Below the pieces are notes generated by a model. That model was not told where the DNA came from and made no database searches. It saw only the letters and a program-made list of their open reading frames with translations. A program made the position numbers and the translations under genes. This document shows, piece after piece, positions 46,478 to 60,723 of a stretch of 64,000 nucleotides of DNA (position 1 is the stretch's first letter; the number at the start of each line of letters is the position of its first letter). Where the stretch lies: positions 1 through 64,000 of the IMG/VR virus record IMGVR_UViG_3300020156_000026; one strand, 5' to 3'. The DNA is from a virus.

Positions 46478-46741
46478 TCAAATGTCATCATCTGCGTCAC
46501 CTGATTGTTCAGGATCATATGTTTTGTATGCAGAAATGAAACGATTTGCTCGGAATGGAGTATCCATAGTATCAAATCTGTGAATACCAAATAGCCTTAC
46601 ACATAAATTATTTTGTCCTGTGTAGTGATCAACAAAGTGTCCTAACCACCTTATTTGATATATTTGATCTTCGATCAACTCATCCTTAATTCCAGAGTTG
46701 TCGATACAAGTAATCCAATCCCCGATCTTAAATGTCGTCAT
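46478..46741 (-). CDS. tag-family protein 1 (beta-barrel head)
   Basis: 87 aa from an ATG embedded in the tag codons of the preceding gene. Head starts MTTFKIGDWITCIDNSG, with the GDx(I/V) strand pattern of SH3-like barrels. Tail TYDPEQSGDADDDI. Last tag gene of the cluster. Function unknown. Confidence 0.75.
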   Translation of the reverse strand: MTTFKIGDWITCIDNSGIKDELIEDQIYQIRWLGHFVDHYTGQNNLCVRLFGIHRFDTMDTPFRANRFISAYKTYDPEQSGDADDDI

Positions 46742-46982
46742 CTGTGTCACCATTTTGTTCAGGTGAGTATTCGACAGTTACATGAGTGATATCACGCTGG
46801 AAAACGTATACATCTTGACTCCAAGTGGTGATATCATCTCTTTTAACATTAAAGATATTAAACTCAGGATTTGATTTTCTCTCTTCAACCAAATCAGTTA
46901 TCACACCAAATACAGGGGGAGTACTATTGGGCCAACTGCTTGGATGCCATCTGATCCAATCTCCAACTTTAAATGTCCTCAT
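46728..46982 (-). CDS. tag-family protein 2 (SH3-like head)
   Basis: 84 aa, MRTFKVGDWIRWHPSSW... head with GVITDLVEE strand, tail YSPEQNGDTDDDI. Its ATG is formed by the GATGAG of the upstream tag, giving a 14-base overlap. The start is nearly the same as protein 1 (M-T/R-TFK-V/I-GDWI), showing recent duplication. Confidence 0.78.
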   Translation of the reverse strand: MRTFKVGDWIRWHPSSWPNSTPPVFGVITDLVEERKSNPEFNIFNVKRDDITTWSQDVYVFQRDITHVTVEYSPEQNGDTDDDI

Positions 46983-47430
46983 CAGTATCCCCATTCTGTT
47001 CAGGTGAATAGGATTTGACACTTATTTTAAGAAACTCCTTCTTAACCCACCTACCAGAAGTCTCAATCATTTTAGTGGTTGTTCCATCCCAATCATTCTC
47101 TTCTTCTTGAAAATATTCAGGAAGATAAGTAGTGGAAGAGTATCCACCATCGTCAGCGAATTGAATTCGTTGAGGTTTCTGCCATTCAAAAGCCTTCTTC
47201 GGAGGTTTTCCGTTTGTGTCGTAATATTCAAAGTGTTGAAGATAAACACCGTATATCTTATTACGGAAAGTGACCTCTTCATCCGTATCTTCGTCGTACT
47301 TATAGTCTTCAAAATCATTGATAGCAACTACAATACCACGTCCACGGCATTTAAGATTTTTCTTGTCAAGGCGGTGAAACTCTTCAAATTCTACGAAAGT
47401 TCCGAGGGGGAATTCTTCAAATGTCGTCAT
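46969..47430 (-). CDS. tag-family protein 3 (larger head)
   Basis: 153 aa, MTTFEEFPLGTFVEFEEFHR..., central GRGIVVAINDFEDY barrel-like strand, then an insertion. Tail YSPEQNGDTDEDI. Start lies inside the upstream tag. Confidence 0.75.
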   Translation of the reverse strand: MTTFEEFPLGTFVEFEEFHRLDKKNLKCRGRGIVVAINDFEDYKYDEDTDEEVTFRNKIYGVYLQHFEYYDTNGKPPKKAFEWQKPQRIQFADDGGYSSTTYLPEYFQEEENDWDGTTTKMIETSGRWVKKEFLKISVKSYSPEQNGDTDEDI

Positions 47431-47728
47431 CCTCATCTCCGGGCTGATCTTTATAATATTGTACAGGATCAAATAGTGATTTTACTCGATCACAATCGAC
47501 CCTAAAAGAAGGGTTAAATTTGAATGCATTATCCACTTCTCGCCTTAACGAGTATTCTCTAACAGGAAATGGACGGTTGAAAATATCATTCAAAAAGATA
47601 TTCCAAGTTGAGTAATCGTGGTAATGACATATAACTCGGTAAATAATATCTGATCGACCATCAACTATCACTTTAGTGTGTAGTGGATATACTACAGGCT
47701 TCTTTTTCTTCTTAAATATCTTCATCAT
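47417..47728 (-). CDS. tag-family protein 4 (divergent tag)
   Basis: 103 aa, MMKIFKKKKKPVVYPLHTKV, then VDGRSDIIYRVI. Tail YYKDQPGDEDDDI keeps only the GD-acidic-DDI end. Start preceded by GGCGGAGCTA. The 25 bases before the start resemble those before tag protein 13. Confidence 0.7.
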   Translation of the reverse strand: MMKIFKKKKKPVVYPLHTKVIVDGRSDIIYRVICHYHDYSTWNIFLNDIFNRPFPVREYSLRREVDNAFKFNPSFRVDCDRVKSLFDPVQYYKDQPGDEDDDI

Positions 47729-47752
47729 TAGCTCCGCCAATTCCAGATGCGA

Positions 47753-48058
47753 CTAGATGTCGTCATCAGTATCCCCATTCTGTGATGGGTCATAAGCCCT
47801 AATACCCGGTAGAAGATTTCGACTGCGTCTAGGGACAAGAACACTTTGCGGACAATGTTGACTTGCTCCACCCAGTCCTTGTCTATAAATATGACGGCCA
47901 CAAGTCCAGTGGTATCTGGAAGAGCAATCATCATCAACTTTTACAACCCAATCACCGTCATTATACCAATACGTACCTACGATTTCACCCGTAATCTTAT
48001 AGGCCTTTCCGTGATTACGGTTTGTATATTGGATGCGATCTCCAATTTGAAATGCCAT
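47753..48058 (-). CDS. tag-family protein 5 (SH3-like head)
   Basis: 101 aa. MAFQIGDRIQYTNRNHGKAY, KITGEIVGTYWYNDGDWVVK is a textbook small beta-barrel pattern. Tail YDPSQNGDTDDDI. Follows the cyclotransferase-like gene. Confidence 0.78.
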   Translation of the reverse strand: MAFQIGDRIQYTNRNHGKAYKITGEIVGTYWYNDGDWVVKVDDDCSSRYHWTCGRHIYRQGLGGASQHCPQSVLVPRRSRNLLPGIRAYDPSQNGDTDDDI

Positions 48059-48072
48059 TTCTTATATACCTC

Positions 48073-48669
48073 TTAAAAATAGTAGGCTTCTAAACCACTT
48101 GGATATCGAATTCTGCTTGCATTTTCAGACCTATCGCCATAGAGGGCTTGATCCATATAAAAATTTATATCGACCGTGTACATCCATGCCTTGACATGTT
48201 TGCCCTTTGCTTGTTGATCAAAGTCAACGAAATGAAGCTCACGATTAACACCTTGAGTGTTACCTTCATGCTTATCAATCTTAGTCAACAAACGAAGAGG
48301 GACACCATAGATATCTCCCTCTACTGCACGAAGATCATTTTCAGAGAACACATGGTTAATATCTCTCCAAAGACTTCTGTCCTTCTTGGGAAGTTGGAAC
48401 AGGAGAGGTTCAGGACGAGAACCAAACCCCGGCTCATACTCCAACGTCTTCATGATGAAGTCATCTTTCCAAGAGATGCCCTTACCATACCAGTTAGCAC
48501 CTTCAAGAAGATGATTTTGTGCATGAGCCCTCCTTAGATTGCCAGTAACAAAGATAATGAACTCATCTGTGTTACATCTATTCAAATCTTGGAAATCAGG
48601 GGTGTACTCATTACACCGTTCAAGTACTTCCCAAGGATTGTAATCAAGCGGCTTCCGCGATACGGCCAT
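48073..48669 (-). CDS. gamma-glutamylcyclotransferase-fold protein (large)
   Basis: 198 aa from ATG 48669. FIIFVTGNLRRAHAQNHLL corresponds to the YGTLxxG loop of the GGCT/AIG2 family, and AVEGDIYGVPLRLLTKIDKH to the conserved V(K/R)GE(V/I)Y strand with LDxxEG. The usual catalytic Glu position is Asp (EGDIYG). Such enzymes cyclise gamma-glutamyl amides to pyroglutamate and could remove what amidoligases add. Overlaps the amidotransferase stop. Confidence 0.65.
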   Translation of the reverse strand: MAVSRKPLDYNPWEVLERCNEYTPDFQDLNRCNTDEFIIFVTGNLRRAHAQNHLLEGANWYGKGISWKDDFIMKTLEYEPGFGSRPEPLLFQLPKKDRSLWRDINHVFSENDLRAVEGDIYGVPLRLLTKIDKHEGNTQGVNRELHFVDFDQQAKGKHVKAWMYTVDINFYMDQALYGDRSENASRIRYPSGLEAYYF

Positions 48670-49708
48670 TCTTATCTTCCTTTGCGATCTGTTGCAGACG
48701 TGCCTGTGCCTTATCCTTCGTCTTCTGAAGGAAAGCAATATGAACAGACTGCTTCTTGATAACTTCAGCCATATGCTGGATCAATGCACCAGCAGTGAAC
48801 TCACCCTCATTGGCAATCCAACTGCACCATTCGTCATAGGTCAAGGCGGAGAACTTGGCCACGTCTTTAGGGTCGTCCAAATCCCAACGATCCACAACAT
48901 CAGTAACCGCCTTAAGGATACGGGGGTCCTTCGACGTATTGGCACCGTTCCACACCTTGAGCGGACTAGTGGAGGTAGTATTCCCCCCTGTATTCCCTCC
49001 AGTGTTCGAAGAGTGGAGAAAAGGGGCATTCTTCCGATCTTCCGCCTCCTTTGCCTTACGAGCCTCTTCACGACGATTGTGTTCAGGCCCACGACTTACC
49101 CTTGTAATATATTCAGTCGTAGAGATCCAAATCTTAGGGGCATTTTCATCGTCTTGCTTGTATTCAGACCAGCCTGACCCAAACCGCATGACAGGAAGGT
49201 CATCAGCAATCAGAAGACCCTTCGAGTTGTATGTCCAATGCTTCTCAAGAATAAGCTTCCAGAACTCAGCATCGGTGTAATCACCCCGACCATGTTCCCC
49301 TTCCCAACGAAGAAGTCCCGGCTGAAGGATCTTTTCACAGAACTCAAGGGTATCTGATTTCCCTTCGGTCCCATATGTACCGTAACTGGACAATGTACCG
49401 TTGTGGCAGAACCAAACATTACGCTTACTAGAGTTATAAGCATTGAACGGTTGGGTGTTCTGCTCACTCGTCCCACCCCTAGTGCTATAACGGACGTGAA
49501 GAACACGTTCAATGTCCTTATTAGCTTCAAGGAGAGTCCAGATTTCTTCGGGATCATTACCCTTTTCATCCAACTTCTTAATCACTTGAATCCGTCCATT
49601 CCCGTCTTTCAGGATCAAACCATAGCCATGCCAATTATTCCAAACGGCATTGTACAAATGGTCCTTGTCGGGCATAGCACCAGGGGTGAAGTGGAAAATC
49701 GTGCACAA
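48644..49708 (-). CDS. class II glutamine amidotransferase (GATase 1)
   Basis: 354 aa Ntn-hydrolase. TTG start followed by Cys (MCTIFHFTPG): the Cys becomes the N-terminal nucleophile after Met removal. VRYSTRGGTSEQNTQPF, FCHNGTLSS and KSDTLEF give glutamine-binding Arg, Asn/Gly and Asp. No synthetase domain; residues ~225-255 are a Gly/Asn/Thr linker and ~70 further residues are unassigned. Would release ammonia from glutamine for a partner ligase. Confidence 0.87.
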   Translation of the reverse strand: MCTIFHFTPGAMPDKDHLYNAVWNNWHGYGLILKDGNGRIQVIKKLDEKGNDPEEIWTLLEANKDIERVLHVRYSTRGGTSEQNTQPFNAYNSSKRNVWFCHNGTLSSYGTYGTEGKSDTLEFCEKILQPGLLRWEGEHGRGDYTDAEFWKLILEKHWTYNSKGLLIADDLPVMRFGSGWSEYKQDDENAPKIWISTTEYITRVSRGPEHNRREEARKAKEAEDRKNAPFLHSSNTGGNTGGNTTSTSPLKVWNGANTSKDPRILKAVTDVVDRWDLDDPKDVAKFSALTYDEWCSWIANEGEFTAGALIQHMAEVIKKQSVHIAFLQKTKDKAQARLQQIAKEDKNGRIAEAA

Positions 49709-49737
49709 ATTACTATTCCTTGTGTCTGTTAAAGTGT

Positions 49738-49977
49738 CTAAATGTCTTCATCAGTATCACCCGACTGTTCAGGTGAATACTTGACAATAATTCGTTCGAG
49801 TGCATTGGGTTCAACTAGCCAGTCAAAATCATGTTCTCTAGCTCGGTCATCCCTTACTCTTACAGCAGTCTTACCCTCCATTCCAGTGACTATAACTATA
49901 TCACCAGTTTTCAATGGTGCCGATGAGGGACGATCTTCAATAACCCTTACTTGTTCACCAGGTTCAAATATCTTCAT
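49738..49977 (-). CDS. tag-family protein 6 (SH3-like head)
   Basis: 79 aa, the shortest intact family member. MKIFEPGEQVRVIEDRP, KTGDIVIVTGMEGKTAVRV shows a compact barrel. Tail YSPEQSGDTDEDI. Starts within the tag of protein 7. Upstream of GATase 1. Confidence 0.8.
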   Translation of the reverse strand: MKIFEPGEQVRVIEDRPSSAPLKTGDIVIVTGMEGKTAVRVRDDRAREHDFDWLVEPNALERIIVKYSPEQSGDTDEDI

Positions 49978-50227
49978 CTATGTCACCATTCTGATCAGGT
50001 GAATAAGGTTTGATTACCTGATGGGGTTTCCACCATTGTTCATCACTATTCCAATGCTGAAGTTTTCCAACTGGATAAGAATTGGGCGCATTAGTCTCGA
50101 TACATTCACCCCATGCGGGATATAAAGAATGTTTATGAAACTTTACGATAATAATGGTGGAGCCTTTGTTAGCCCCAGGAGCTGGAGTATCACTCCCTCC
50201 CCCACACCATTTGTAGATACCTTCCAC
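49964..50227 (-). CDS. tag-family protein 7
   Basis: 87 aa, GTG start overlapping the ATP-grasp stop (TAGTG). Head MEGIYKWCGGGSDTPAPG..., TIIIVKFHKHSLYPAWG. Tail YSPDQNGDIDEDI. Head less obviously barrel-like. Confidence 0.72.
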   Translation of the reverse strand: MEGIYKWCGGGSDTPAPGANKGSTIIIVKFHKHSLYPAWGECIETNAPNSYPVGKLQHWNSDEQWWKPHQVIKPYSPDQNGDIDEDI

Positions 50228-51015
50228 TAGATCCTCCCAAAGGCATTAGCATAGTTGGTAACAGTAGTACCTACAAGACCCGGAGCCGTGTTGACTTCAA
50301 GTACGAATGCCTGTGACTCACGCTCATTGTAGATTACATCCGCTGCACCAAAGTCAAGACCAAGTGCATTTACTGCTGCAACACCAGCATCAAGAACAGA
50401 CTGTGGGGGAGTACGACCATCGTTACGTACAAAGACGAAACCATTGGCAAGGTTACGTACCATCCAATTGACATCTTCCTGACCACGAAATTCCTCACGG
50501 AGGCCCTTCCGCTGTACGTCAATTACCTGATTGCGCAGGACATGCACACGATATTCATCCTTCTTCTTTTTGTACTTGACATAAAGATTAGCACGAACGT
50601 CCCAAGTATCTCCCTGTTCAGGGTCCATGATGACAATACCACGACCAGAATGTCCACGAAGGACAGTACGAGCCATGACTGTTTCATCAGCTTCAAGCCA
50701 ACGATGAGCTTCGGCGATATCAGTGGTAAATTCCGGAATAGGAACACCAGCAGCTTGAAAAGCACGAAATGCCTGAAGCTTATCAGATGCCACATCAACA
50801 CGTTCAGGATGATTAAGAACGCGGCAGTTCAACAAGGTTTCCGGTGCACTCTCACGAACCTTCTGAAGACCTGCACCCCAATTGATGATAGTTTTATCAG
50901 GCTTTCCACGGAAGTTAGAACCATGGTGCTTGATGCGGGGAACACTAAGGGCACGAGCCAGTTCCTTAGAACCTTCGGAATGCTGATTGTATGCGAACAT
51001 TGCAGTAATAGACAT
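50227..51015 (-). CDS. ATP-grasp ligase
   Basis: 262 aa from ATG 51015 (GGAG nine bases upstream; in-frame ATGs at 51036 and 51042 also possible). ATP-grasp features: RTVLRGHSGRGIVIMD phosphate loop, YVKYKKKKDEYRVHVL, and the metal-binding end AADVIYNE...FVLEVNTAPGL. Resembles RimK/D-Ala-D-Ala ligase-type carboxylate-amine ligases that join an amino group to an ATP-activated carboxylate. Substrate unknown. Confidence 0.88.
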   Translation of the reverse strand: MSITAMFAYNQHSEGSKELARALSVPRIKHHGSNFRGKPDKTIINWGAGLQKVRESAPETLLNCRVLNHPERVDVASDKLQAFRAFQAAGVPIPEFTTDIAEAHRWLEADETVMARTVLRGHSGRGIVIMDPEQGDTWDVRANLYVKYKKKKDEYRVHVLRNQVIDVQRKGLREEFRGQEDVNWMVRNLANGFVFVRNDGRTPPQSVLDAGVAAVNALGLDFGAADVIYNERESQAFVLEVNTAPGLVGTTVTNYANAFGRI

Positions 51016-51016
51016 T

Positions 51017-51337
51017 TCAAATATCTCCGTCTTCATCGCCATTCTGTTCAGGCGAATACTTTGTTAACTTGTAGAGCTTTTCAATTTTATGTCGAGATAC
51101 TACCGATTTATACCACTCATGGGCTCCACCCGGTTCATCTTTATCTCGGTCGAGATAATTAAACCCGTCCACTCTTACTCTTATTTGCCAGTCACGAGAA
51201 TTAGTAATTACGGAAACCACCTCTCCTTTGACAATGCCATCTTCCGGAATGGGATTAATCAATGAACGGTTTGATTTTATATCCCAAAATATACTATTAA
51301 GGTTTAGGATATCTCCGACTTGGAATTCAGATGTCAT
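51017..51337 (-). CDS. tag-family protein 8 (SH3-like head)
   Basis: 106 aa, MTSEFQVGDILNLNSIFW..., GIVKGEVVSVITNSRDWQ barrel strands. Tail YSPEQNGDEDGDI. GAGGG before the ATG. Immediately precedes the ATP-grasp gene, whose first codons overlap the tag. Confidence 0.78.
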   Translation of the reverse strand: MTSEFQVGDILNLNSIFWDIKSNRSLINPIPEDGIVKGEVVSVITNSRDWQIRVRVDGFNYLDRDKDEPGGAHEWYKSVVSRHKIEKLYKLTKYSPEQNGDEDGDI

Positions 51338-51366
51338 ATTTGCCCTCGCAAATTTCAAGATATCCT

Positions 51367-51702
51367 TCAGATATCATCATCTTCGTCACCATTTTGATCA
51401 GGTGAATAGGGTTTATGCAGAAGGCTTAACTTATTTTCTGGGAACCAATACCCATAAGAATAGTTCTTCAACCTCCTATTTATACTATCACCAGTAAAGT
51501 ATTCACTTATGTACTTCATACATGTGTCAGACAGATAGAGATAATGATGAAAATGACTACTCCCATTGTCGAGAAGTACTCCAAAAGGGTGTGCACTATA
51601 TGCTGGATCTTCCATTTCAGAGATAGCAACAATAGTGCCAGTATACTCTTTATGAGAACCCATATATGGCTTACATACTACACGATCACCAAGATTAAAC
51701 AT
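51367..51702 (-). CDS. tag-family protein 9 (SH3-like head)
   Basis: 111 aa, MFNLGDRVVCKPYMGSHKEY, TGTIVAISEME. Tail KPYSPDQNGDEDDDI. ATG lies in the last codons of the amidoligase gene (GCAGATGTTTAA), so it is translationally coupled to it. Confidence 0.78.
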   Translation of the reverse strand: MFNLGDRVVCKPYMGSHKEYTGTIVAISEMEDPAYSAHPFGVLLDNGSSHFHHYLYLSDTCMKYISEYFTGDSINRRLKNYSYGYWFPENKLSLLHKPYSPDQNGDEDDDI

Positions 51703-52729
51703 CTGCTGTTGCCTCAATAGTACGCACATTATTATTCCGAAGATGATACATCTCCGAGATAACAGTACGTTCATGTTCCGAAACTACATCAAAAGGAGAA
51801 CCAAACTTCTCAATAGAAAGTTCATCGAGAGGTTTCTTGAGCTTTTCCTTATAGATTGGCTTGATCTTGAGAATACCAAACTTCTTCCAATCGGTAGTGA
51901 TGGAAGCAAACTTGGCAGCATACGTGAGATTTACCTTGCAAAGATTTTCCGTTTCCTTCCCCTGCTTCAATACATTTGCATGTTCTTGGAACACAAGATC
52001 AACAAAAGCATTAGCACCAAGGCGCTTATACTCAAGGATGATCTTAACAGGATCAAGGTTAGGACGCTTTGCATACTCCTTCATCTTCAGAAGGATTTCA
52101 GCCCACTGAAAGATGATACGTTTGTCAGTCTCACCACGGAAAGAACGTACCTCTGCTGTCCCAAGAGTGGTAAGATTTGCCATATTAAGCGCAGCATACT
52201 TGCAACGTTCTGATGACAACCCAAGTCTGCCAAACATTCTCTTGTTGACCATCTTGAGAAGGTTCTCAAACTGAGTTACTGCACCCTCTGCATCCATCAT
52301 CGGGAGACAAAACAAGTTAGACAGACGATCAGGACCACTATACCGAATGAGAAGATTCTCCACGATGGCATAGGTTGTCATGAAATTGACCAAGCTAAGG
52401 AAAGTCTCATTCAAGAAGTTCAGATGAACGTGAACCGAAGTAGAGATACTATCCTTGCGGAACTCGTACGTCTTGTTTACGCCATCAAACTCATCGAGGG
52501 CTAGTGACAATCCCTTCAAGTCGAGAGGCTCCTTGAGAATGTATTCAACCCCGTAATCACGAAGAGATCCATCCTTCTTGGCCACCCAATATTTCAATCG
52601 GGGGTATTCATACCTCTTACTGCTATCCACTTCAGTTTCAATTTCGACACCAAAGTCACCAGTGTATCGCTTACCGCCGAACTTACCAGTTTGCTTGAAG
52701 ATGTCGTAAATATTCGACAGTTCTTTCAT
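51695..52729 (-). CDS. COOH-NH2 amidoligase (GCS/GS-like superfamily)
   Basis: 344 aa. GDFGVEIETEVD is the strand-1 metal site, SISTSVHVHLNF the central strand with catalytic His, and KYAALNMANLTTLGTAEVRS with FRG the nucleotide/metal site. This is the pattern of Amidoligase_2-type proteins related to glutamate-cysteine ligase. They join amines to carboxylates of peptides or metabolites using ATP. The partner substrate is unknown. Confidence 0.87.
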   Translation of the reverse strand: MKELSNIYDIFKQTGKFGGKRYTGDFGVEIETEVDSSKRYEYPRLKYWVAKKDGSLRDYGVEYILKEPLDLKGLSLALDEFDGVNKTYEFRKDSISTSVHVHLNFLNETFLSLVNFMTTYAIVENLLIRYSGPDRLSNLFCLPMMDAEGAVTQFENLLKMVNKRMFGRLGLSSERCKYAALNMANLTTLGTAEVRSFRGETDKRIIFQWAEILLKMKEYAKRPNLDPVKIILEYKRLGANAFVDLVFQEHANVLKQGKETENLCKVNLTYAAKFASITTDWKKFGILKIKPIYKEKLKKPLDELSIEKFGSPFDVVSEHERTVISEMYHLRNNNVRTIEATADV

Positions 52730-52730
52730 G

Positions 52731-53345
52731 TTATACCTCGACTACAGTCCAACCAGGGACTTCCTCAATCACATCCTTATAGATGAAAGAGAGTTCACTC
52801 TTGGGAATGTTGATCGTAGTGCTACCCACACGCATAGTTCCAACTTCTTCTTCCTTGACAAAGATAGAATAGTTAGCACCTACGCGCTTGAGAGCCACAT
52901 TACGTGATACAGCAGCAGATGCCCATCCACCTTTGATAAGCATTTCTTGTGCAGATACCACAGTTGGATACTTGTTCATCACACAATCAACCAATCCTTG
53001 GCACTGTTGAAGACTACCAAAGTTGATCGAACCCTCTTCACCAAGAGTTTTCTGTGTGAGATAGCTGATTTCAACACCTTGCTTGAACCGACGGAGAGGT
53101 TCACGCTTAAGATATACAGCCAACTTCTTTCGGCCTGCAAAATTCACATAGCCGAGAGGAATGGAACTAATATCTAGATCAGCATCATCCGGTTCCACAC
53201 GTCGGATGAGTTCTCCCTTGACCAAATCAACTAGACCAATAGTACCAGTTGAATCCACCTCTGCAATAAACGGAGTACCCTTATGACGGATAATCGTATG
53301 GTGCAGACGTGCACGAATGTCATCACCTTTATACTTATTGCGCAT
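52731..53345 (-). CDS. hypothetical protein inside amidoligase cluster, 204 aa
   Basis: MRNKYKGDDIRARLHHTIIR..., two alpha/beta segments and a beta-rich end (FVKEEEVGTMRVGSTTINIP). Lies between the amidoligase and a tag gene, with short spacing. No family recognised; likely a dedicated partner of the pathway. Confidence 0.7.
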   Translation of the reverse strand: MRNKYKGDDIRARLHHTIIRHKGTPFIAEVDSTGTIGLVDLVKGELIRRVEPDDADLDISSIPLGYVNFAGRKKLAVYLKREPLRRFKQGVEISYLTQKTLGEEGSINFGSLQQCQGLVDCVMNKYPTVVSAQEMLIKGGWASAAVSRNVALKRVGANYSIFVKEEEVGTMRVGSTTINIPKSELSFIYKDVIEEVPGWTVVEV

Positions 53346-53354
53346 TGTTAGTCC

Positions 53355-53684
53355 TTAAATATCCTCATCCGTATCGCCATTCTGTTCAGGCGAGTATGGT
53401 TTTGTTTTAGCCTTTATATAAATTTTATGCGTCTTACGGCTAATATGAGTTCCAGCACCTGTTGGTATATGATTCCACGGATAATCCGAAAATCTTGCCC
53501 AAACTCTATTCTCTCCATGAAGTTTCGATATCATGGCTTCTGCGGAGTTATGAGTCACATATCCATAACGAATACGTGAAAGATCACCAGTATGCCATGG
53601 ATCTCTTACATAGAGGATTTCATCCCCTTCTTTAAGTTCAACGGATTTGTCGAGGGGGACATAACCTTCTGGAATTTTAACCAT
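53355..53684 (-). CDS. tag-family protein 10
   Basis: 109 aa, MVKIPEGYVPLDKSVELKEG, DEILYVRDPWHTG barrel-like start. Tail KPYSPEQNGDTDEDI. Begins five bases after the type-2 amidoligase stop. Its tag is followed at once by the start of the 204-aa gene. Confidence 0.77.
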   Translation of the reverse strand: MVKIPEGYVPLDKSVELKEGDEILYVRDPWHTGDLSRIRYGYVTHNSAEAMISKLHGENRVWARFSDYPWNHIPTGAGTHISRKTHKIYIKAKTKPYSPEQNGDTDEDI

Positions 53685-53688
53685 AGGA

Positions 53689-54396
53689 TTACATTCCCGT
53701 AATCTCTTGAAGGGTAGTACGGACCTCATTGAACATCTTCCGTCGAAGCTTTTCTTCACTCACCCACACATTAGAAGGGGCACGAAGTTCTACTCCATAC
53801 TTCTTGGGACGGAAGGAACCACTGTGGCCATAATACCTCAACCGCTCCTGCTCATCTTGGGTATTGGGGGAGAAGGATAACAGGTGTGCATTATAGAACC
53901 CCTGCGCAATATAGAGGCAATCCTCGAAGTGGTCTCGAACAGTAGGATCATCAACGTTAGTCCAACCAATATGGACATGGCCAGCCGCAGTACGAATGGG
54001 ACGATCTTCCAGACGCATGATGGGGTTTTCATTCACTTCCCCATGAACATTAAAGTCCGGATCACATCCAAGCACCTTCGCCTGATCAGGTACGCTCGAC
54101 CAAACACGTTCAGAGAACTTCGCCAGAGGTACAAAACGAAGAATGAGGTCTTTGTCAACCTTTTTCACCATTTCATCCATCTGTTTCAACACAGTTTCAA
54201 TGTTCCGATTGAACTGATCTTCTGTTTCAGCAGGATCAATGTTGAACTCAGCAGCTACACCATCCGGCTGAACTGCGCCACACTCTACCTGAAACGGAGA
54301 TTTCTTCGACCCAGGAATAATATCGTGAGCAGAGATAAAAGTCCCTGCCTTGTCAACAATAAAAAGTTCCGGATCAGCACCCAAAAGAATTGCCAT
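53689..54396 (-). CDS. phiEco32-like amidoligase-type 2 protein
   Basis: 235 aa. GADPELFIVDK, VQPDGVAAEFNIDPAETEDQ, GCDPDFNVHGEVNENP, TAAGHVHIGW and YYGHSGSFRPKKYGVELRAP match the COOH-NH2 ligase family first noted in phiEco32-like phages. Predicted ATP-dependent amide bond formation. Starts directly after the amidotransferase stop (TAAATG). Confidence 0.88.
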   Translation of the reverse strand: MAILLGADPELFIVDKAGTFISAHDIIPGSKKSPFQVECGAVQPDGVAAEFNIDPAETEDQFNRNIETVLKQMDEMVKKVDKDLILRFVPLAKFSERVWSSVPDQAKVLGCDPDFNVHGEVNENPIMRLEDRPIRTAAGHVHIGWTNVDDPTVRDHFEDCLYIAQGFYNAHLLSFSPNTQDEQERLRYYGHSGSFRPKKYGVELRAPSNVWVSEEKLRRKMFNEVRTTLQEITGM

Positions 54397-55500
54397 TTAT
54401 GCATTTTCCTTTAAAACGTTAAGTGGATCACACTCTTCGCAATAATGCTTCTGCATTGAAGAGTCCCACCGAGGATAACCTTTAAGACCCCGACGAGAAT
54501 AATTTGTCTCAATCAGGTTCATTGTCTTAGCTCCACACGCACATTTGGAGAAAAATGACTTAATCTTCCCGTTTTCTTGTGATTTCGGAAAGTCAACTAC
54601 ATTATTTTTATTGGCAGGAGTAATTTTCTCTTGCTTTAATGGATAAGAGTACTCAGGAGCAGTCCAACCAAAGGCATGTTGATCCTCTTTTGACTTAACC
54701 TGAGGTACAGACGTAGGCTTAAAAGGGGCCTCGTCCTTCTTTTCCTCCTTCTTCTCCAACTCTGGCTTGAAAAGGTGAGTTACCTTCATACAATCCAGCG
54801 CAGCCTTCTTACAGGAAATCTCCGAAGGGACAACCTTTAAAAGTTTATGGGGAAGAAGATTGAAATACTTGGCATTAACACCATGCCTGTTCAAGACGAA
54901 CTTGAGCATTTCCTTTTCAGATGCCCAATACATCACATTACGATCTTCCAAAAAAGCAAGAGCTAGTGTTCGCTTCTCATTTCGACCGAAATATAATGCA
55001 CCATCAGTGCGATCATAGATAACAACTGCATATGCACTGTCGTCATTCAACTCACTGATGACAGGAATGATCCCACGATTGTTCATATCGCGGAACATAA
55101 GTTCACTGTCCGTCTTATCCTTGTCCTGATACTTCTGATCCTTCAGTGTACCATTATGGGCACCAACAAAACGTTCAACAATGAAGGGATGAGAGTTAGC
55201 ACTACAGATACGACCACGAGTAGCAGCACGAACGTGCATCATGATGATATCACAGGATACGTTATTCAACACATCCTTATATGCTTTGTCCCAATCAATC
55301 TCATCCAACATAGTACTGAAATTTTCAGAAGTTTTGTAGATGAAAGAGTTGTTAAACTTTTGGTTTCGACGAGCAGAAGAAATTTGAAAAACTCCTGCAC
55401 CATCTCTTCCCCGAATTTGCGACAAGATGCCGAGGTTACGGGCGATAGACAAGTCTTGGGCATTAATTCCTGGGCCAGCTAACCCTGCGTGTCCACACAA
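54397..55500 (-). CDS. class II glutamine amidotransferase (GATase 2) with zinc-ribbon tail
   Basis: 367 aa. TTG start then Cys (MCGHAGLAG). MMHVRAATRGRICSANSHPF, GAHNGTL and KTDSELMF form the glutamine site. The Ntn domain (~240 aa) is followed by a Lys/Glu/Pro linker and a C-terminal zinc ribbon (KCACGAK...YCEECD). No synthetase domain, so ammonia must pass to a separate ligase, probably the type-2 amidoligase encoded next. Confidence 0.88.
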   Translation of the reverse strand: MCGHAGLAGPGINAQDLSIARNLGILSQIRGRDGAGVFQISSARRNQKFNNSFIYKTSENFSTMLDEIDWDKAYKDVLNNVSCDIIMMHVRAATRGRICSANSHPFIVERFVGAHNGTLKDQKYQDKDKTDSELMFRDMNNRGIIPVISELNDDSAYAVVIYDRTDGALYFGRNEKRTLALAFLEDRNVMYWASEKEMLKFVLNRHGVNAKYFNLLPHKLLKVVPSEISCKKAALDCMKVTHLFKPELEKKEEKKDEAPFKPTSVPQVKSKEDQHAFGWTAPEYSYPLKQEKITPANKNNVVDFPKSQENGKIKSFFSKCACGAKTMNLIETNYSRRGLKGYPRWDSSMQKHYCEECDPLNVLKENA

Positions 55501-55515
55501 ATCGCAATTCCTTTT

Positions 55516-55809
55516 TTAAATGTCATCATCAGTATCACCCGATTGTTCAGGTGAATACGGTCTTACGACCTGTTTGAATCTCCAAGGGTAAGCATTAGGG
55601 ATTACATCACCAGTTTTAAGTTCAGTTACAGGGACTGTCTGGTATTTATGACCATACCTTTCTGTTTCTCCAAAACTTAATTGCTCCCATTGATGATCTG
55701 TATAGGATGGTCCTGAAAGATAACCTTCGTGTGGAATGTCAATCTCATAAAGCTCACCCACGATCAGACGACCGCTATATGTACTCACTGCTTCAACTAT
55801 TACTTTCAT
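55516..55809 (-). CDS. tag-family protein 11 (SH3-like head)
   Basis: 97 aa, MKVIVEAVSTYSGRLIVGEL, YEIDIPHEGYL, tail RPYSPEQSGDTDDDI. ATG overlaps the end of the class I GATase-like gene. Precedes GATase 2. Confidence 0.78.
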   Translation of the reverse strand: MKVIVEAVSTYSGRLIVGELYEIDIPHEGYLSGPSYTDHQWEQLSFGETERYGHKYQTVPVTELKTGDVIPNAYPWRFKQVVRPYSPEQSGDTDDDI

Positions 55810-56411
55810 CGGAGCAACCCCACAAGAGCAAGGAAATGAGACTTCTGGCTGTAATCCCTAGCCCTTTCAGGACGAGGTTGATAACAAAGACAATTGGTGT
55901 CGTCATACCAAACGATCTCTGATTCAAACTTAGGAAATACCACGGGGTTAATACCTTCACGATAGAAGGCTTTCCCTACATTTTCAGAGTACCCCAAGAT
56001 TTCAGCCTTGTCAGTTGGAATCATCATCTGATGGTGAGTGCTATCTACACGCATCAAACTATGGTCCAAGGTATTATAGATGTAGTGATCACCTACATGC
56101 CCACTCACATGCTGATAGAGCTTACCTCCATTCATCACATTAAGGAACTGAGCCCCTCGTCCAATACCCACCTTCAACTGCTTCTTACGAGTTGCCCGCC
56201 AGACCTCACAGTCCAACTTATCCCTCATAAGATTTAGGTTGACAGTTCTGTGAGCTTTCGTCTCACCATAAAGTTCAGGATTAACATCCTCACCTCCAGG
56301 AAAAACTACAATATCAGCGTTCTCTGCACGAGAAATGATACTGAAATTCTCATCAGAAAATAGTTTAGCGACTTCTCGGTCGTGAGTTGAAAACCCAACT
56401 GTAATTGACAT
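55806..56411 (-). CDS. class I glutamine amidotransferase-like pseudoenzyme
   Basis: 201 aa of the PuuD/peptidase C26 type: DIVVFPGGEDVNPELYGE, nucleophile-elbow region KVGIGRGAQFLNVMNGGKLY and STHHQMM. Family members have Cys in GxCRGxQ and a His in QxHPE. Here these are Gly (codon 56160-56162) and Arg (CYQPRPE), so hydrolysis is not expected while the fold is kept. May bind a gamma-glutamyl substrate or act as a scaffold. Confidence 0.82.
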   Translation of the reverse strand: MSITVGFSTHDREVAKLFSDENFSIISRAENADIVVFPGGEDVNPELYGETKAHRTVNLNLMRDKLDCEVWRATRKKQLKVGIGRGAQFLNVMNGGKLYQHVSGHVGDHYIYNTLDHSLMRVDSTHHQMMIPTDKAEILGYSENVGKAFYREGINPVVFPKFESEIVWYDDTNCLCYQPRPERARDYSQKSHFLALVGLLR

Positions 56412-56420
56412 TAAGTATCC

Positions 56421-56699
56421 TCATATGTCATCGTCAGTGTTACCGTTTTGATCAGGTGAATACGGTTTAATCGAATCAACTTTTTTGAGAAAATCCATCC
56501 GACATAGATATCCATCCGGATTATAACGGCCATCGTAACTTAATAGGTATTCTCTTATTTCAGGGGTTTCCCATCTGATCACCGCCATATCCGAAAACTC
56601 TTTTATTGCGAGGATCACCCCCTCGCCGGAGATACGAGACGAAAAAGCCCCATGATAAGAGATTCGATCCCCTGTCTTTAAACGAGTTCGTTCTTCCAA
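56421..56699 (-). CDS. tag-family protein 12 (SH3-like head)
   Basis: 92 aa from a TTG at 56699 with GGAG eight bases upstream (a longer TTG start at 56744 is possible). MEERTRLKTGDRISYHGAFS, EGVILAIKEFSDMAVIRW. Tail KPYSPDQNGNTDDDI, the only copy with Asn in the first Asp position. A six-codon frame opened in its tag ends on the next gene's ATG. Confidence 0.74.
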   Translation of the reverse strand: MEERTRLKTGDRISYHGAFSSRISGEGVILAIKEFSDMAVIRWETPEIREYLLSYDGRYNPDGYLCRMDFLKKVDSIKPYSPDQNGNTDDDI

Positions 56700-57328
56700 C
56701 GTTCCTGCTCCATACGGATCTGACGGAGGGAAAGGTTCAACCAAGCATCACCACGGTTCTGCCATGTGTACAGGTCAATACCAAACTTCATCTTGATATG
56801 GCGACGAGCCACTTCAGGAGAAACGAGAAGAACTTCACCAACAGGGTTGTCCAAGATAGCATTCTGCTGAACGATCTTATTGACCTTGAGGTTCTTGATA
56901 GCTTCGAACTTCTGACGAGCAGGGTCAGGCTTCTTCGGAGGATCGATCTTGTCCCGAAGTTCAATCAACTCCTTGTGGAATGCGTTAAGGCTCTCTTCAT
57001 ACTTGGTAGGATTAGTAGCCCACAAGGCAAGATCACCAGTCTCCTTATGGCGATGTGCGTCGTTATCCTTCTTAGTGCCAACGTAAACTCTCTCAAATCC
57101 ACACTTCGGCATGAACTCGTCAAGACCATAGTTGTCGATCTGATTCTGTGTAGTGAACGCATGAAGGATAGCAAAGTCACGCTTGAACCCTCCCTTACGA
57201 AGATCTTCCACCATTCCAAGTTGAGCCCGAAGTTTCAGCTTAGGGTCTTTGTCATTGAGTCCTTGACGGGACCAACCAGTGATCAAAGAGGCAGTGCAAG
57301 TAGTCGGTACAGAATTATGTTGGATCAT
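56678..57328 (-). CDS. hypothetical protein in tag/amidoligase cluster, 216 aa
   Basis: MIQHNSVPTTCTASLITGWS..., with FAILHAFTTQNQIDNYGLDE, MPKCGFERVYVGTKK, then HKETGDLALWA, which looks like a compact alpha/beta fold, then a helical charged part. An acetyltransferase-like fold is conceivable but not shown. ATG has GGAAGTAAT upstream. Confidence 0.7.
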   Translation of the reverse strand: MIQHNSVPTTCTASLITGWSRQGLNDKDPKLKLRAQLGMVEDLRKGGFKRDFAILHAFTTQNQIDNYGLDEFMPKCGFERVYVGTKKDNDAHRHKETGDLALWATNPTKYEESLNAFHKELIELRDKIDPPKKPDPARQKFEAIKNLKVNKIVQQNAILDNPVGEVLLVSPEVARRHIKMKFGIDLYTWQNRGDAWLNLSLRQIRMEQERWKNELV

Positions 57329-57339
57329 ATTACTTCCTT

Positions 57340-57705
57340 TCAAATATCAAGGTCTGCATCATCACCGGATTGTTCCGGAGAATAAGGTTTGATTAGTTTT
57401 CGGTAGATGTAGAGAGGAAATCTTTCTTGGCTGATAAGACAATGAGAACCTCCCCTCGATTCATCAATTGACACCCTCTCTGCTGACTCCAATGAAAAAG
57501 TTTCATTATCTGCGAAGCTGAAGATAGCATAAATTCGCTGATCATCACATTGACTAAGTGTCTTTTTAGTCACCTTTCCAAAATGTTTAAATCCGGGAGC
57601 ATAACTTCTAGTAAACTCCCCTTCATGTGTCCAAAAGATAATATCTCCTGGAGCTATTTGGTTTTTAGAGAGGATACGTTCGTATTCACCATCATATATC
57701 ATCAT
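57340..57705 (-). CDS. tag-family protein 13
   Basis: 121 aa, MMIYDGEYERILSKNQIAPG, DIIFWTHEGEF. Tail KPYSPEQSGDDADLDI carries one extra residue and lacks the internal ATG codon overlap. GTGGAGCTA before the start; in-frame GTG at 57729 is an alternative. Confidence 0.74.
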   Translation of the reverse strand: MMIYDGEYERILSKNQIAPGDIIFWTHEGEFTRSYAPGFKHFGKVTKKTLSQCDDQRIYAIFSFADNETFSLESAERVSIDESRGGSHCLISQERFPLYIYRKLIKPYSPEQSGDDADLDI

Positions 57706-57728
57706 TAGCTCCACTAATTCCAATGACA

Positions 57729-58019
57729 CTATATGTCATCATCTTGATCCCCGTTCTGATCAGGTGAATAATGAGTAGTAGCAATCTTCACAAGAGCCAT
57801 AATACCAAAACGAGTATCATTGGGGTTTTTCTCTATGGATCTATCTATGGCTTCATGTAGTGCTATACCGTCATCCCAATCGATGAAATAACTATCACCA
57901 TAAATTACTTCACGGACTGTACCCTTATGAATCCCTTTAATTTTAAGAAAAGGGTTAAAGAATTGTATTCGATCACCAACACTCAAACGTTGGCGAGATT
58001 GTTCATCCCAAGAAATCAT
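57729..58019 (-). CDS. tag-family protein 14, first gene after the regulatory gap
   Basis: 96 aa. MISWDEQSRQRLSVGDRIQF..., HKGTVREVIYGDSYFIDWDD is a clear SH3-like pattern. Tail HYSPDQNGDQDDDI. GAGGG lies seven bases before the ATG. It heads the main run of tag and amidoligase genes. Confidence 0.8.
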   Translation of the reverse strand: MISWDEQSRQRLSVGDRIQFFNPFLKIKGIHKGTVREVIYGDSYFIDWDDGIALHEAIDRSIEKNPNDTRFGIMALVKIATTHYSPDQNGDQDDDI

Positions 58020-58215
58020 AGGGACCCTCTATTTTTGTGTTGACAAAGAAAAGAAAATGTGCTACCCTTATACAAGTAGTATATATATATACTCTATTGG
58101 TATACACCATTGGGATATCTAAAAGAATTATATTAACTTATTGTTCCATTAGATATACCAATAGAATATATCCCCAAGTATATTTCAACTTGGGGATTAT
58201 ATATTTCCTGAAGAA
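58020..58215 (-). promoter_or_regulatory. AT-rich regulatory gap with nested inverted repeats
   Basis: 196 bp gap, the largest within the leftward accessory region. Contains a 12-bp perfect inverted repeat (58093-58104 with 58154-58165), an inner 8-bp one (58115-58122 with 58149-58156), an alternating AT tract (58080-58092), and a separate 10-bp hairpin (58170-58197, core CCCCAAGT/ACTTGGGG). Probably terminator plus promoter/operator for the tag cluster; no consensus leftward -35 was found. Confidence 0.5.
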
Positions 58216-58473
58216 TTACCTCCGGAGCTTCATCTCTTTGTAATAGCAAATCTTGCCAAAGATGAAGGACAGAAGGAAGAAGATACCAGGAATTAGGGAA
58301 ATGACCCCTAGGAACCTGATAACATTAAGTACTCCAAAATCCTGCACTGCAAAATAGAAAAGAAGCCCCAGGATAAGTGCAAAGAATGCACCTAGGAGAA
58401 GAATAAAGGTAATCGTGACACCTTCATTCCAATTGCATCGACGTAGAAACTCTTTCACTTTTCGAACTTCCAA
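58216..58473 (-). CDS. two-pass membrane protein, 85 aa
   Basis: Two hydrophobic helices (VTITFILLLGAFFALILGLL and IRFLGVISLIPGIFFLLSFI) with basic ends. Overlaps the previous gene by 19 bases. Possible inner-membrane accessory or antiholin; unassigned. Confidence 0.65.
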   Translation of the reverse strand: MEVRKVKEFLRRCNWNEGVTITFILLLGAFFALILGLLFYFAVQDFGVLNVIRFLGVISLIPGIFFLLSFIFGKICYYKEMKLRR

Positions 58474-58682
58474 TCGTAGATCAAAGAATCACTTTTTTCG
58501 CTTAGAGTGATCCGAGCGGTGACTTCATAAACTTCAAAATCCTGAAGATCACCGAAACCTTGACTGAGGATGTGAGCAGAAATAGCCTTTTCAACCCCCT
58601 TTTGAGAGGGGAACAGACCATCGATACTTTCCTCATTAACAACCTGCTCAGTACCATCCAGTATCAAATACTTCTTTGTCAT
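58455..58682 (-). CDS. hypothetical protein, 75 aa
   Basis: MTKKYLILDGTEQVVNEESI..., predicted alpha/beta. No tag. Function unknown. Confidence 0.65.
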   Translation of the reverse strand: MTKKYLILDGTEQVVNEESIDGLFPSQKGVEKAISAHILSQGFGDLQDFEVYEVTARITLSEKSDSLIYDWKFEK

Positions 58683-58695
58683 TCAAAGACCCTTC

Positions 58696-58932
58696 CTAAT
58701 CATTGCAAAGAGTGACAGTGCCGATATAATCGGTAAATTCATCAGGTATAAAATTTCCTGATGTTCCGATACCCTCACCTTTTTTACTTTCACCATGGAT
58801 GATTACACCATGGTAAAAGAGATTATCCTGGCGGGTTGCCAAGATGATTGTATGGGGGTGAATTTTCCGTGCCATCAACTTAGGGAATGGACGGTAACAT
58901 CTGCAATTACGTTCGCCGAGTTCACTCTTCAT
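58696..58932 (-). CDS. hypothetical protein, 78 aa
   Basis: MKSELGERNCRCYRPFPKLM..., central IILATRQDNLFYHGVIIHGE. Two Cys near the N-terminus. Follows the cyclotransferase gene with a 2-base gap, suggesting shared expression. Confidence 0.65.
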   Translation of the reverse strand: MKSELGERNCRCYRPFPKLMARKIHPHTIILATRQDNLFYHGVIIHGESKKGEGIGTSGNFIPDEFTDYIGTVTLCND

Positions 58933-58934
58933 TG

Positions 58935-59324
58935 TTACCTACTCCAATAGTGTTCATTACCATCAATGTGGCAATGTTCCATTCCTACAAAATTACGCCA
59001 GCAGTTCTTGCCACCGACGTACATGCCCACTTCTCGTCCCCCTCGTGTTACCACGTTCTCACGTGTGTACATGTGGGGAACACCTTCAAGACCATCCAAA
59101 CGGGCTAGTGTACTTGCCGCCCGTTCATCCGTTAGGGGATCACCAATATCCCATACTTCACCACGCACAGCAGTGAGAGGGTTAGGATTAGCGACGGGGA
59201 AACCAGAATAATAAAGCTCGTAACCTTCGACAACATCTTCACCTACCAGTGTAGCTTGACCTGATGACAGGATACGATTGTTACCGTACCCCTGCTTCAA
59301 CGTTCCGTATACAAAAACCTGCAA
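58935..59324 (-). CDS. gamma-glutamylcyclotransferase (AIG2/GGCT family)
   Basis: 129 aa. MQVFVYGTLKQGYGNNRIL is the family's substrate loop, VRGEVWDIGD carries the catalytic Glu, and LARLDGLEGVPHMYTRENV the conserved LDxxEG. These enzymes release 5-oxoproline from gamma-glutamyl amines. Its presence near amidoligases suggests gamma-glutamyl linkages in the pathway. Confidence 0.9.
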   Translation of the reverse strand: MQVFVYGTLKQGYGNNRILSSGQATLVGEDVVEGYELYYSGFPVANPNPLTAVRGEVWDIGDPLTDERAASTLARLDGLEGVPHMYTRENVVTRGGREVGMYVGGKNCWRNFVGMEHCHIDGNEHYWSR

Positions 59325-59567
59325 TTAATTTACCTTTTCTCTTTTGATCGCCATACTAATCTTTTCAACTGGCTTGAATATAACTTCACAGAGGTAGAAT
59401 TCTGGAGCAGACAAAGAAAACTCTTCAAACTCATCTTCAGCATTACTTCTAGACCAATGGATGCCAGAAATGTCGTTTACTTCTTCTACACCTTCAGACT
59501 TTGGGTTAGTTTCGACAAGACAATAAAATCTACCTTCTGCATCAATAGTAATAGTTTTCTTTTTCAC
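59325..59567 (-). CDS. hypothetical protein, 80 aa
   Basis: MKKKTITIDAEGRFYCLVET..., beta-strand rich, mixed charge. Abuts the cyclotransferase start. No family recognised. Confidence 0.65.
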   Translation of the reverse strand: MKKKTITIDAEGRFYCLVETNPKSEGVEEVNDISGIHWSRSNAEDEFEEFSLSAPEFYLCEVIFKPVEKISMAIKREKVN

Positions 59568-59767
59568 AGCCGAAATTCCTGTGTGATGAGTGAAGCATGA
59601 TGTTCGCGCATATCCTCAAGGATACGAGAACCCTCGGGTAGTTCCCAAATACGGTCTGCTTGCCTCATAACTGCCCGTACAGAGGGTTTCTCATCCCTGC
59701 CGAAGGTAGACTGCTCCTGAGCAAAGATGCGCTTGTATAGCCTTCCATGACGTTCTGTGTATTTCAC
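59564..59767 (-). CDS. hypothetical basic protein, 67 aa
   Basis: GTG start in a GTGA overlap with the upstream gene. MKYTERHGRLYKRIFAQEQS..., helical. Overlaps the next start too. Confidence 0.6.
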   Translation of the reverse strand: MKYTERHGRLYKRIFAQEQSTFGRDEKPSVRAVMRQADRIWELPEGSRILEDMREHHASLITQEFRL

Positions 59768-59910
59768 CTCAACAACCCCTTTTTCTTGAGGGCTTTAATG
59801 ATCGCTTTAGCCTCTTGTTCCACAGAAGTGCGATCCCATTCACTTAGCCCAGCATGTCGGATAATAGTATCCGTGATTAAATCTAATACCTCTTGTTGAG
59901 GTTTTTTCAC
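59764..59910 (-). CDS. 48-aa helical protein
   Basis: GTG start overlapping the upstream TGA (GTGA). MKKPQQEVLDLITDTIIRHA, basic end ALKKKGLLR. Overlaps on both sides support it. Confidence 0.55.
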   Translation of the reverse strand: MKKPQQEVLDLITDTIIRHAGLSEWDRTSVEQEAKAIIKALKKKGLLR

Positions 59911-60278
59911 TTGATAATCCTCGCGTCAGTCGGAATATCATCAGTAAAAGTGATTTCCAACTTTCCGACGATCTGACTCTTGTAATAACGGGCAGCAACC
60001 TCAGAATCTTTTATTATTCCCCACCCTTCTTTCCAAGATCTTCCTCCGATAATAGTAGCTACCTTCTTCTCGATGATAGGCTCATGATATTCATGCCAAT
60101 TGACGCAACTTTTCATATCCCACAGAAGTTCTTGCCCGACACGAACAAAACTTGTTGGATCTGGCAGGACGGTGTAAGTAACCACCATCTTCTCATCGCC
60201 TACCCAGAGAACCTTTATAGTCCTCTTGGTTTCGTTATTTCTGTATTCCTTACCAACTTCAAATGTCACCTTCGTCAT
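59907..60278 (-). CDS. hypothetical protein, paralogue of the 62165 gene
   Basis: 123 aa from ATG 60278, which lies in an orphan tag remnant (60259-60285). MTKVTFEVGKEYRNNETKRT. Shares NW(H/K)EYH(E/P)P and a C-terminal (E/T)F(T)xD-TDA(R/K)(I/V)I pattern with the protein at 62165-62536. Beta-rich; function unknown. Confidence 0.7.
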   Translation of the reverse strand: MTKVTFEVGKEYRNNETKRTIKVLWVGDEKMVVTYTVLPDPTSFVRVGQELLWDMKSCVNWHEYHEPIIEKKVATIIGGRSWKEGWGIIKDSEVAARYYKSQIVGKLEITFTDDIPTDARIIK

Positions 60279-60285
60279 CCCCATT
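60259..60285 (-). repeat. orphan tag-coding remnant
   Basis: In a frame different from the surrounding gene, the minus strand reads NGDDEGDI followed by TGA, the last part of the shared tag, but no start or head precedes it (upstream TGA 36-38 bases away). It overlaps the start of the 59907-60278 gene exactly as intact tags overlap their downstream genes. Confidence 0.55.
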
Positions 60286-60305
60286 TGTTTCACAAATTCC
60301 AGTGT

Positions 60306-60569
60306 CTAGATGTCACTATCTAGATCACCCTCTTGTCCTGGCTCGTATGGTACGGAAGCCGTTGGATCTAGTTCATAATATCCACCCCAAGGAGGGGGTG
60401 CCCCCGGAATAGGGCAATGCGCATGTGGTACAGCAGTCAACGGGGTTGTTGCAGCACCAAGTTTATGGACTTCAAGTGCAGCACCCCACGACGTGACGGC
60501 AACACATTTGTACTTAGTACCAATTGTACTATGACCACGAAACCGATACCATCGTCCAACCTTAAACAC
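60306..60569 (-). CDS. tag-family protein 15 (divergent tag)
   Basis: 87 aa, GTG start. MFKVGRWYRFRGHSTIGTKY, KCVAVTSWGAALEVHKLG barrel pattern, Pro/Gly-rich insert. Tail VPYEPGQEGDLDSDI, the most diverged intact tag. Overlaps the stop of the 53-aa gene. Confidence 0.72.
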   Translation of the reverse strand: MFKVGRWYRFRGHSTIGTKYKCVAVTSWGAALEVHKLGAATTPLTAVPHAHCPIPGAPPPWGGYYELDPTASVPYEPGQEGDLDSDI

Positions 60570-60723
60570 TAAGAAGACCCTTCTTCATAGCCTTCAAAGT
60601 AGCTTCAGCAAGGTTCCCCAAATCTTCAGGGAAAGCACAGATCACTTTGCTCCCCTGTTTGATGACATGCTTCTTCACAAGAGTATTAAACTCAATTGTG
60701 TATTCGTCATTAGATGTCGTCAT
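60562..60723 (-). CDS. 53-aa protein starting inside the interrupted tag gene
   Basis: ATG at 60723 is made by the tag codons of the interrupted family member (GATGACGACATC). Product MTTSNDEYTIEFNTLVKKHV, basic end MKKGLLSV. No tag of its own. Confidence 0.6.
   Translation of the reverse strand: MTTSNDEYTIEFNTLVKKHVIKQGSKVICAFPEDLGNLAEATLKAMKKGLLSV

Follow-up and report, generated by a model that had tools for sequence, protein, structure and literature searches.

Why do so many small genes of one viral genome end in the same peptide, and what could read it? The window (the whole stretch of DNA analysed, 64 kb out of the 65.9-kb IMG/VR virus record IMGVR_UViG_3300020156_000026) contains 16 small minus-strand genes that share the C-terminal peptide Y-S-P-(D/E)-Q-N-G-D-x-D-x-D-I (consensus PYSPEQNGDTDDDI), referred to here as the tag. 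As an earlier note on this DNA had proposed, the tag genes lie scattered among enzyme genes, namely those for one ATP-grasp ligase, a pair each of amidoligases, class II glutamine amidotransferases (GATases) and GGCT-fold proteins, and a class I GATase-like protein. Our comparisons showed one tag peptide, selected at the protein level, on proteins with unrelated N-terminal domains, and the sharing of a tag across unrelated small early proteins suggests an undescribed protein-tagging system. Tentatively, we favour a reading in which this C-terminal peptide, specific to each phage, serves for recognition by a partner that the phage itself encodes; the likeliest candidate is the RimK-like ATP-grasp/amidoligase module.

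A C-terminal tag selected at the protein level

The 16 tag genes span positions 46478–60880, past both ends of the range first noted:

46478–46753, minus strand: tag gene, ends KTYDPEQSGDADDDI; start of the next downstream gene about 120 nucleotides off
46728–47021, minus strand: tag gene, ends VEYSPEQNGDTDDDI; tag DNA contains the start codon of the next gene
46969–47472, minus strand: tag gene, ends KSYSPEQNGDTDEDI; likely start at 47430 or 47436
47417–47740, minus strand: tag gene, variant tag VQYYKDQPGDEDDDI
47753–48058, minus strand: tag gene, ends RAYDPSQNGDTDDDI; modelled as a small SH3-like barrel followed by a tail of low confidence
49738–49977, minus strand: tag gene, ends VKYSPEQSGDTDEDI
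49964–50227, minus strand: tag gene, ends KPYSPDQNGDIDEDI
51017–51358, minus strand: tag gene, ends TKYSPEQNGDEDGDI
51367–51774, minus strand: tag gene, ends KPYSPDQNGDEDDDI
53355–53759, minus strand: tag gene, ends KPYSPEQNGDTDEDI; internal ATG at 53684
55516–55809, minus strand: tag gene, ends RPYSPEQSGDTDDDI
56421–56744, minus strand: tag gene, ends KPYSPDQNGNTDDDI
57340–57729, minus strand: tag gene, ends PYSPEQSGDDADLDI
57729–58019, minus strand: tag gene, ends THYSPDQNGDQDDDI
60306–60569, minus strand: tag gene, variant tag VPYEPGQEGDLDSDI
60710–60880, minus strand: tag gene, ends KSYSPDQNGDQDDDI

Recurring C-termini were detected de novo, with calibration on internal segments of the same open reading frames (ORFs). 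In the window, 45–52 C-terminal pairs scored above threshold versus 0–1 for internal segments, and the last 14 residues of the tag proteins held 34.8 bits of information versus 5.6 bits in the preceding 14. Identity among the 16 tags at codon positions 1, 2 and 3 was 0.80, 0.79 and 0.47, all three types of stop codon were used after them, and two tags used an identical codon for a shared residue with a probability close to background (0.59 between tags versus 0.50 elsewhere in these genes). Thus, the window tag is not a copied DNA element, and a DNA junction or recombination site as its cause was rejected, since free variation is seen both at third codon positions and in the stop codons. No homology was detectable between the N-terminal parts of the window tag proteins (0/120 pairs), and neither PHROG nor Pfam yielded a confident family for those tested. 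At 46728–46753, the DNA of the tag GATGACGACATTTAA is used twice: in another frame it encodes MTTF, with which the next tag gene begins. Outside the cluster, a 112-residue ORF (38247–38585) has the C-terminus APDVGDEEDDI, similar to the final residues of the tag.

A nucleotide search of the phage collection found no near relatives of the window; its nearest named relatives are three Rhizobium phages and the Sinorhizobium phage phiM6. The two relatives compared in full, RHph_I3_11 and phiM6, have the same enzyme order as the window. RHph_I3_11 carries YDPxQxGDTEDDI-type tags between the enzymes; phiM6 has a distinct tag, Y(K/R)xDQEPxEDEExL, and all 14 of its tag genes form one block outside the enzyme core. 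Eight full-length phages of the DDI/EExL type gave concerted tags in the detector, as did Zobellviridae (LENE in CVT22, LEND in Pecta, LENK in Klyazma and VR7901, LEENV in CW02, MENE in T2S1), and IMG/VR contributed FKGN(K), EDIWL and more DDI and ENx tag phages. In all, 20 phages from four lineages, every one with ligases, carried concerted C-terminal tags, with lineage-specific tag sequences and 6–17 small early proteins tagged per phage (243 tagged ORFs by tag pattern, an approximate count with overlapping candidate ORFs in some phages). In CVT22, ENE ends were seen 14 times versus 0.011 expected from the internal frequency.

The tagged proteins are mostly 53–175 residues long, with an early GD motif. 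The AlphaFold2 (AF2) model of the protein at 47753–48058 is a small barrel with a low-confidence tail (mean pLDDT 65), and the barrel weakly matches Tudor, chromo-barrel and R67 DHFR barrels. An SH3-like barrel with the GD motif seems to be the fold of many tagged proteins, and the eight of the tag-bearing G018 resemble paralogues, as would be expected of ordinary paralogy, in which one tagged gene multiplied and the N-terminal parts diverged past recognition. We consider this very improbable, since the tag is also found on a GNAT acetyltransferase domain (L254:262-798, with the tag of its own phage) and on a DUF7448 protein (L063), since homologous SH3-like domains bear different tags by lineage (DDI in RHph_I3_11, LEENV in CW02, FKGNK in G020), and since the last 4–14 residues are far more conserved than the preceding 14.

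The tag could also arise largely from translational coupling: if each small gene carries in its 3' end the ribosome-binding site for an overlapping gene downstream, translation in frame would turn that site into a fixed peptide. Consistently with this, strings resembling a Shine-Dalgarno (SD) site occur in 144 of 207 tags, many of the next starts show overlap, and in four phages (CVT22, Pecta, Klyazma and T2S1) the tag DNA almost always reads YTG (or ATG) GAG AAY, with GAG as the Glu codon in practically every case; in LENx tags one more codon comes next, then a stop that coincides with the next start codon or lies close to it, and synonymous identity in LENx phages is 0.55–0.75 versus a background of about 0.45–0.5. 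In contrast, just 4 of the 16 window tags contain an SD-like string, the distance to the next start varies from within the tag to more than 100 nucleotides, and synonymous identity is at or near background in the window, G003, G007, phiM6, CW02, G018 and G019. Even within LENx tags, the only variation at the Asn codon (AAT/AAC) is synonymous, and so is that at the last codon, whose residue differs between phages (GAY in Pecta, GAR in CVT22, AAR in Klyazma); control phages with crowded genes are untagged. An SD site at a fixed distance together with frozen synonymous sites was therefore absent from the window and seen, in part, only in the LENx clade; a pure ribosome-binding-site artefact was rejected for the window clade and partly accepted for LENx. 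For the tags as a whole, coupling is an improbable explanation. We read the LENx tag as a protein tag that also serves initiation in one clade, and this double use makes the LENx lineages weaker independent support.

Tag genes and the ligase module

The enzymes named in the earlier note lie where it had placed them, all on the minus strand, with families assigned by profile search; a protein of about 200 residues that was missing from its list is a core member of the cluster:

48073–48738, minus strand: GGCT-fold protein 2 (PF06094, 1.8e-5)
48644–49708, minus strand: stand-alone class II GATase B (PF13230, 5.1e-6); N-terminal Cys2 retained (MCTIF)
50227–51042, minus strand: RimK-like ATP-grasp ligase (phrog_2599, 6.7e-83)
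51695–52729, minus strand: Amidoligase_2 (PF12224, 8.5e-6; phrog_7469, 9.7e-51)
52731–53345, minus strand: core protein of about 200 residues (phrog_11055), function unassigned
53689–54396, minus strand: phiEco32-like COOH-NH2 ligase type 2 (phrog_3815, 7.9e-62; alignment; PF14395, 4e-4, below cut-off)
54397–55500, minus strand: class II GATase A (PF13522, 1.5e-9); N-terminal Cys2 retained (MCGHAG)
55806–56411, minus strand: class I GATase/C26 gamma-glutamyl-hydrolase-like protein (Peptidase_C26 PF07722, 3e-16)
58935–59324, minus strand: GGCT-fold protein 1 (PF06094, 4.2e-16)

ATP-grasp ligase, COOH-NH2 ligase, Amidoligase_2 and class II GATase occur jointly near the primase. The ATP-grasp enzyme retains the metal-site motif LEVNTAPG, of the RimK type EVN.(S/A)PG, and the best PDB matches of its family profile are the S6--L-glutamate ligases 5zct and 4iwx (~1e-6); since all its RimK scores (TIGR00768, 1.3e-8) fall below the NCBIfam cut-offs, it is a distant RimK relative. 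A PDB match was looked for with the COOH-NH2 ligase and none was found. An intact class I GATase/C26 nucleophile is a frequent, not universal, member of such modules; the window protein has Gly in place of the nucleophile Cys (GIGRG, versus GICRG or GVCRG in other motif-bearing family members) and, sequencing error aside, is probably inactive as a glutaminase. The core protein has 61 homologues among ligase-selected loci; its AF2 model (pLDDT 94) gave zero Foldseek matches at E <= 0.001, with weak partial matches of the KOW/SH3 type (best Z 4.2). A 221-residue protein (56678–57343, NSVPTTCTA...GW) is kept across the DDI/EExL clade and lies outside any Pfam or PHROG family. Three tag-clade contigs (G004, G016 and G017) carry an extra COOH-NH2 ligase copy, 42–44% identical, which the window lacks.

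That most of the enzyme genes have a tag gene immediately upstream, as was claimed, proved overstated. The arrangement holds for four of the eight (the C26-like protein, the GATase at 54397, the ATP-grasp ligase and the GATase at 48644), whereas a non-tag gene lies directly upstream of the COOH-NH2 ligase, Amidoligase_2 and both GGCT proteins, and the pattern is not conserved in phiM6. With half of the window enzymes so paired and a single block in phiM6, a one-to-one pairing of tags and ligases was rejected.

At the level of neighbourhoods, the link between tags and ligases is real, and wider than the earlier note had proposed. Because sampling was mostly through ligase homology and the phages are related, the association is to be taken as strong and not as proof. 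Ligases were present in all full-length tag-bearing phages examined, and tag genes were nearer to ligases than other small same-strand ORFs in 17/17 phages (P 2e-8 to 0.01). Among loci of at least 12 ORFs, 11/80 with a ligase were tagged versus 0/58 without (P 0.0026); at 30 ORFs or more, where few controls remain, the difference weakened to P 0.05. On the ATP-grasp tree the tag-bearing phages form four lineages, and tag status requires 6 changes versus a shuffled mean of 19.4 (0/500 shuffles as low); two apparent untagged exceptions inside tag clades (L255 and L261) were found on inspection to carry tags. In the other direction, a tag-first scan showed both ligases tested in all four full-length DDI-tag contigs, and repeated ENE (LENE-type) strings occurred, among the matches listed, only in CVT22 and L261, both ligase-bearing. 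No tags were seen in 80 kb each of T4, SPO1, phiKZ and phiM12. None of 73 ligase-less loci selected by DNA polymerase reached four tags; one 6.7-kb fragment among such loci has three DDI tags and is too short to judge. Independence of ligases and tags in other phages, the outcome that would have spoken against a link, was therefore seen on one side only: ligases are often untagged, no tags were found without ligases, and tags appear to be nested within ligase phages, not the reverse.

Candidate readers of the tag

A recognition role of the tag is well supported; that there is a single reader, that this reader is a ligase, and every chemical step set out below, we infer. If the reader is one phage-encoded protein, it is probably among the genes common to the tag-bearing phages, which in 14/14 tested were replication genes, one structural gene, class II GATase, ATP-grasp, amidoligase and the core protein of about 200 residues (the COOH-NH2 ligase, missed in two of them through ORF overlap, was recovered by direct search). 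No tag-specific extra gene was found, the core protein being present in 14/14 tag-bearing phages but also in untagged ones.

As this common set includes a DNA polymerase, a primase-helicase and a portal-like gene, the tag might be a localisation or assembly signal read by the replisome or by capsid or scaffold proteins (in packaging or ejection), with the ligases as mere early-region neighbours; the SSB-like protein of the window (39946–40563) ends LNDDIPW, a faint resemblance to the DDDI end. However, ligase-less loci with a related primase or DNA polymerase are untagged (0/78 and 0/73), as are CRP-6 and SKA49, tags adjoin ligases, and the LENx, FKGN and EDIWL tags are unlike SSB tails. We regard this explanation as unlikely, though it has to be taken seriously, and since phages that share the replication genes and lack the ligases also lack tags, the ligase module is favoured as the reader. 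The SSB-like counterparts in phiM6 and RHph_I3_11 end DDIPW and KLPW.

The extreme C-terminal location on small early proteins would suit a stability signal, either a degron or a polar tail shielding these proteins from host tail-specific proteases. Yet the tag is uniform within each phage and differs across phages of related hosts (LENE for Citrobacter, LEND for Erwinia, LENK for Klebsiella), which is not something that a shared host protease would require; moreover, an ssrA-type degron has an LAA-like hydrophobic end, which the window lacks, and the ends observed are DDI, LENE/D/K and FKGN. A role in stability thus seems highly improbable.

If the ligase module is the reader, one phage-encoded partner would recognise the tag on the full set of small early proteins, most of them SH3-like, the candidate being the RimK-like ATP-grasp ligase together with the amidoligase, GATase and GGCT proteins that accompany it. 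The ATP-grasp enzyme would activate the carboxylate at the tagged C-terminus and couple an amino acid or amine to it, as RimK does on S6; the COOH-NH2 ligase and Amidoligase_2 might lengthen or cross-link what it makes, ammonia supply or glutamine handling might fall to the class II GATases, and gamma-glutamyl bonds might be trimmed by the GGCT and C26 proteins. Such C-terminal ligation to tagged proteins would be the most economical mechanism. The system may even be private to each phage, whose own ligase machinery alone would recognise, extend or conjugate the tagged set, tag and reader changing together; this we consider possible and somewhat doubtful.

Several observations weigh against a ligase reader. 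Among 80 ligase loci from IMG/VR that hold 12 or more ORFs, 69 are untagged, and PA11, GP100, T2S2, BA6, UFV-P2, phiEco32, Slicky01 and others have ligases but no tags; thus, the ligases do not need tagged proteins and in most ligase phages must have other substrates. In chemical character the tags differ from each other: DDI is acidic, LENE polar, FKGN basic and EDIWL hydrophobic. Such diversity would be strange in the targets of a single conserved ligase, unless recognition is fast-evolving. Conservation in the LENx clade partly reflects the SD site. Related phages are not independent, four lineages are a small number, and replisome or virion proteins could equally read the tag.

If the ligases do read the tags, these phages would encode a self-specific protein modification system; the tagged proteins are candidate substrates for the phage amidoligase module, and the substrate question becomes directly testable. 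Even with another reader, a concerted C-terminal tag shared by unrelated proteins would amount to genome-wide protein addressing, for which no phage description was found in the literature searched.

Relation to known systems

The enzyme module itself is already known, in agreement with the earlier note: the phage combination of ATP-grasp, COOH-NH2 ligase, amidoligase and GATase is ascribed to Iyer et al. 2009, as cited in the phiM6 announcement, where host peptidoglycan modification is the proposed role (PMC6256558). The tag family, which had been thought to lie outside existing descriptions, has none in the literature searched, an earlier mention in Iyer et al. 2009 being possible. The known module (PA11, phiRIO-1, LUZ24-like phages, phiEco32) has the same enzyme families in similar order, beside primase and DNA polymerase, but PA11, phiEco32 and UFV-P2 are untagged, no tag family was found in its descriptions, and the second class II GATase of the DDI clade sets that clade apart. 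The Klyazma phage paper does not mention the enzyme module.

As in RimK-dependent glutamylation of S6, the window combines a RimK-family ATP-grasp enzyme with a protein C-terminus as candidate acceptor; unlike S6, many different small proteins share the added tail in tag phages, and their use as acceptors is putative. The acidic C-terminal tip of SSB is likewise short, and D-D-D-I resembles D-D-D-I-P-F, but the window tags end D-D-I without the terminal Pro-Phe/Trp of the tip (D-D-x-I-P-F/W), with which the SSB-like protein itself ends (DDIPW), and the tags of other lineages are not similar. Pupylation (Pup, PafA, Dop; PMC3511204) is a parallel in its working only, pairing a glutamine-synthetase-like carboxylate-amine ligase with a small protein. 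The tags lack the C-terminal Gly-Gly-Glu/Gln of Pup, and no similarity to PafA was detected. In the LysX/ArgX-LysW systems, an ATP-grasp ligase recognises the acidic C-terminal tail of a small protein. This works like the proposed tag system, but LysW is a single zinc-ribbon carrier, as opposed to 6–17 proteins in each tag phage, most of them SH3-like and all with the tail specific to that phage; the window proteins end DI, not in an EDWGE-type tail with final Glu, and have no zinc-ribbon Cys pattern.

As a separate observation, a Cys-rich protein, considered as a candidate for a general ligase substrate, of about 53–64 residues with the C-terminal consensus C.YSP..C..CG..PC..SC (for example L088:7111-7305, in PA11) recurs in the ligase phages PA11, T2S2, phiEco32, T5S1_18163, Vibrio 1.293.O and Pecta, and is a possible LysW-like carrier.

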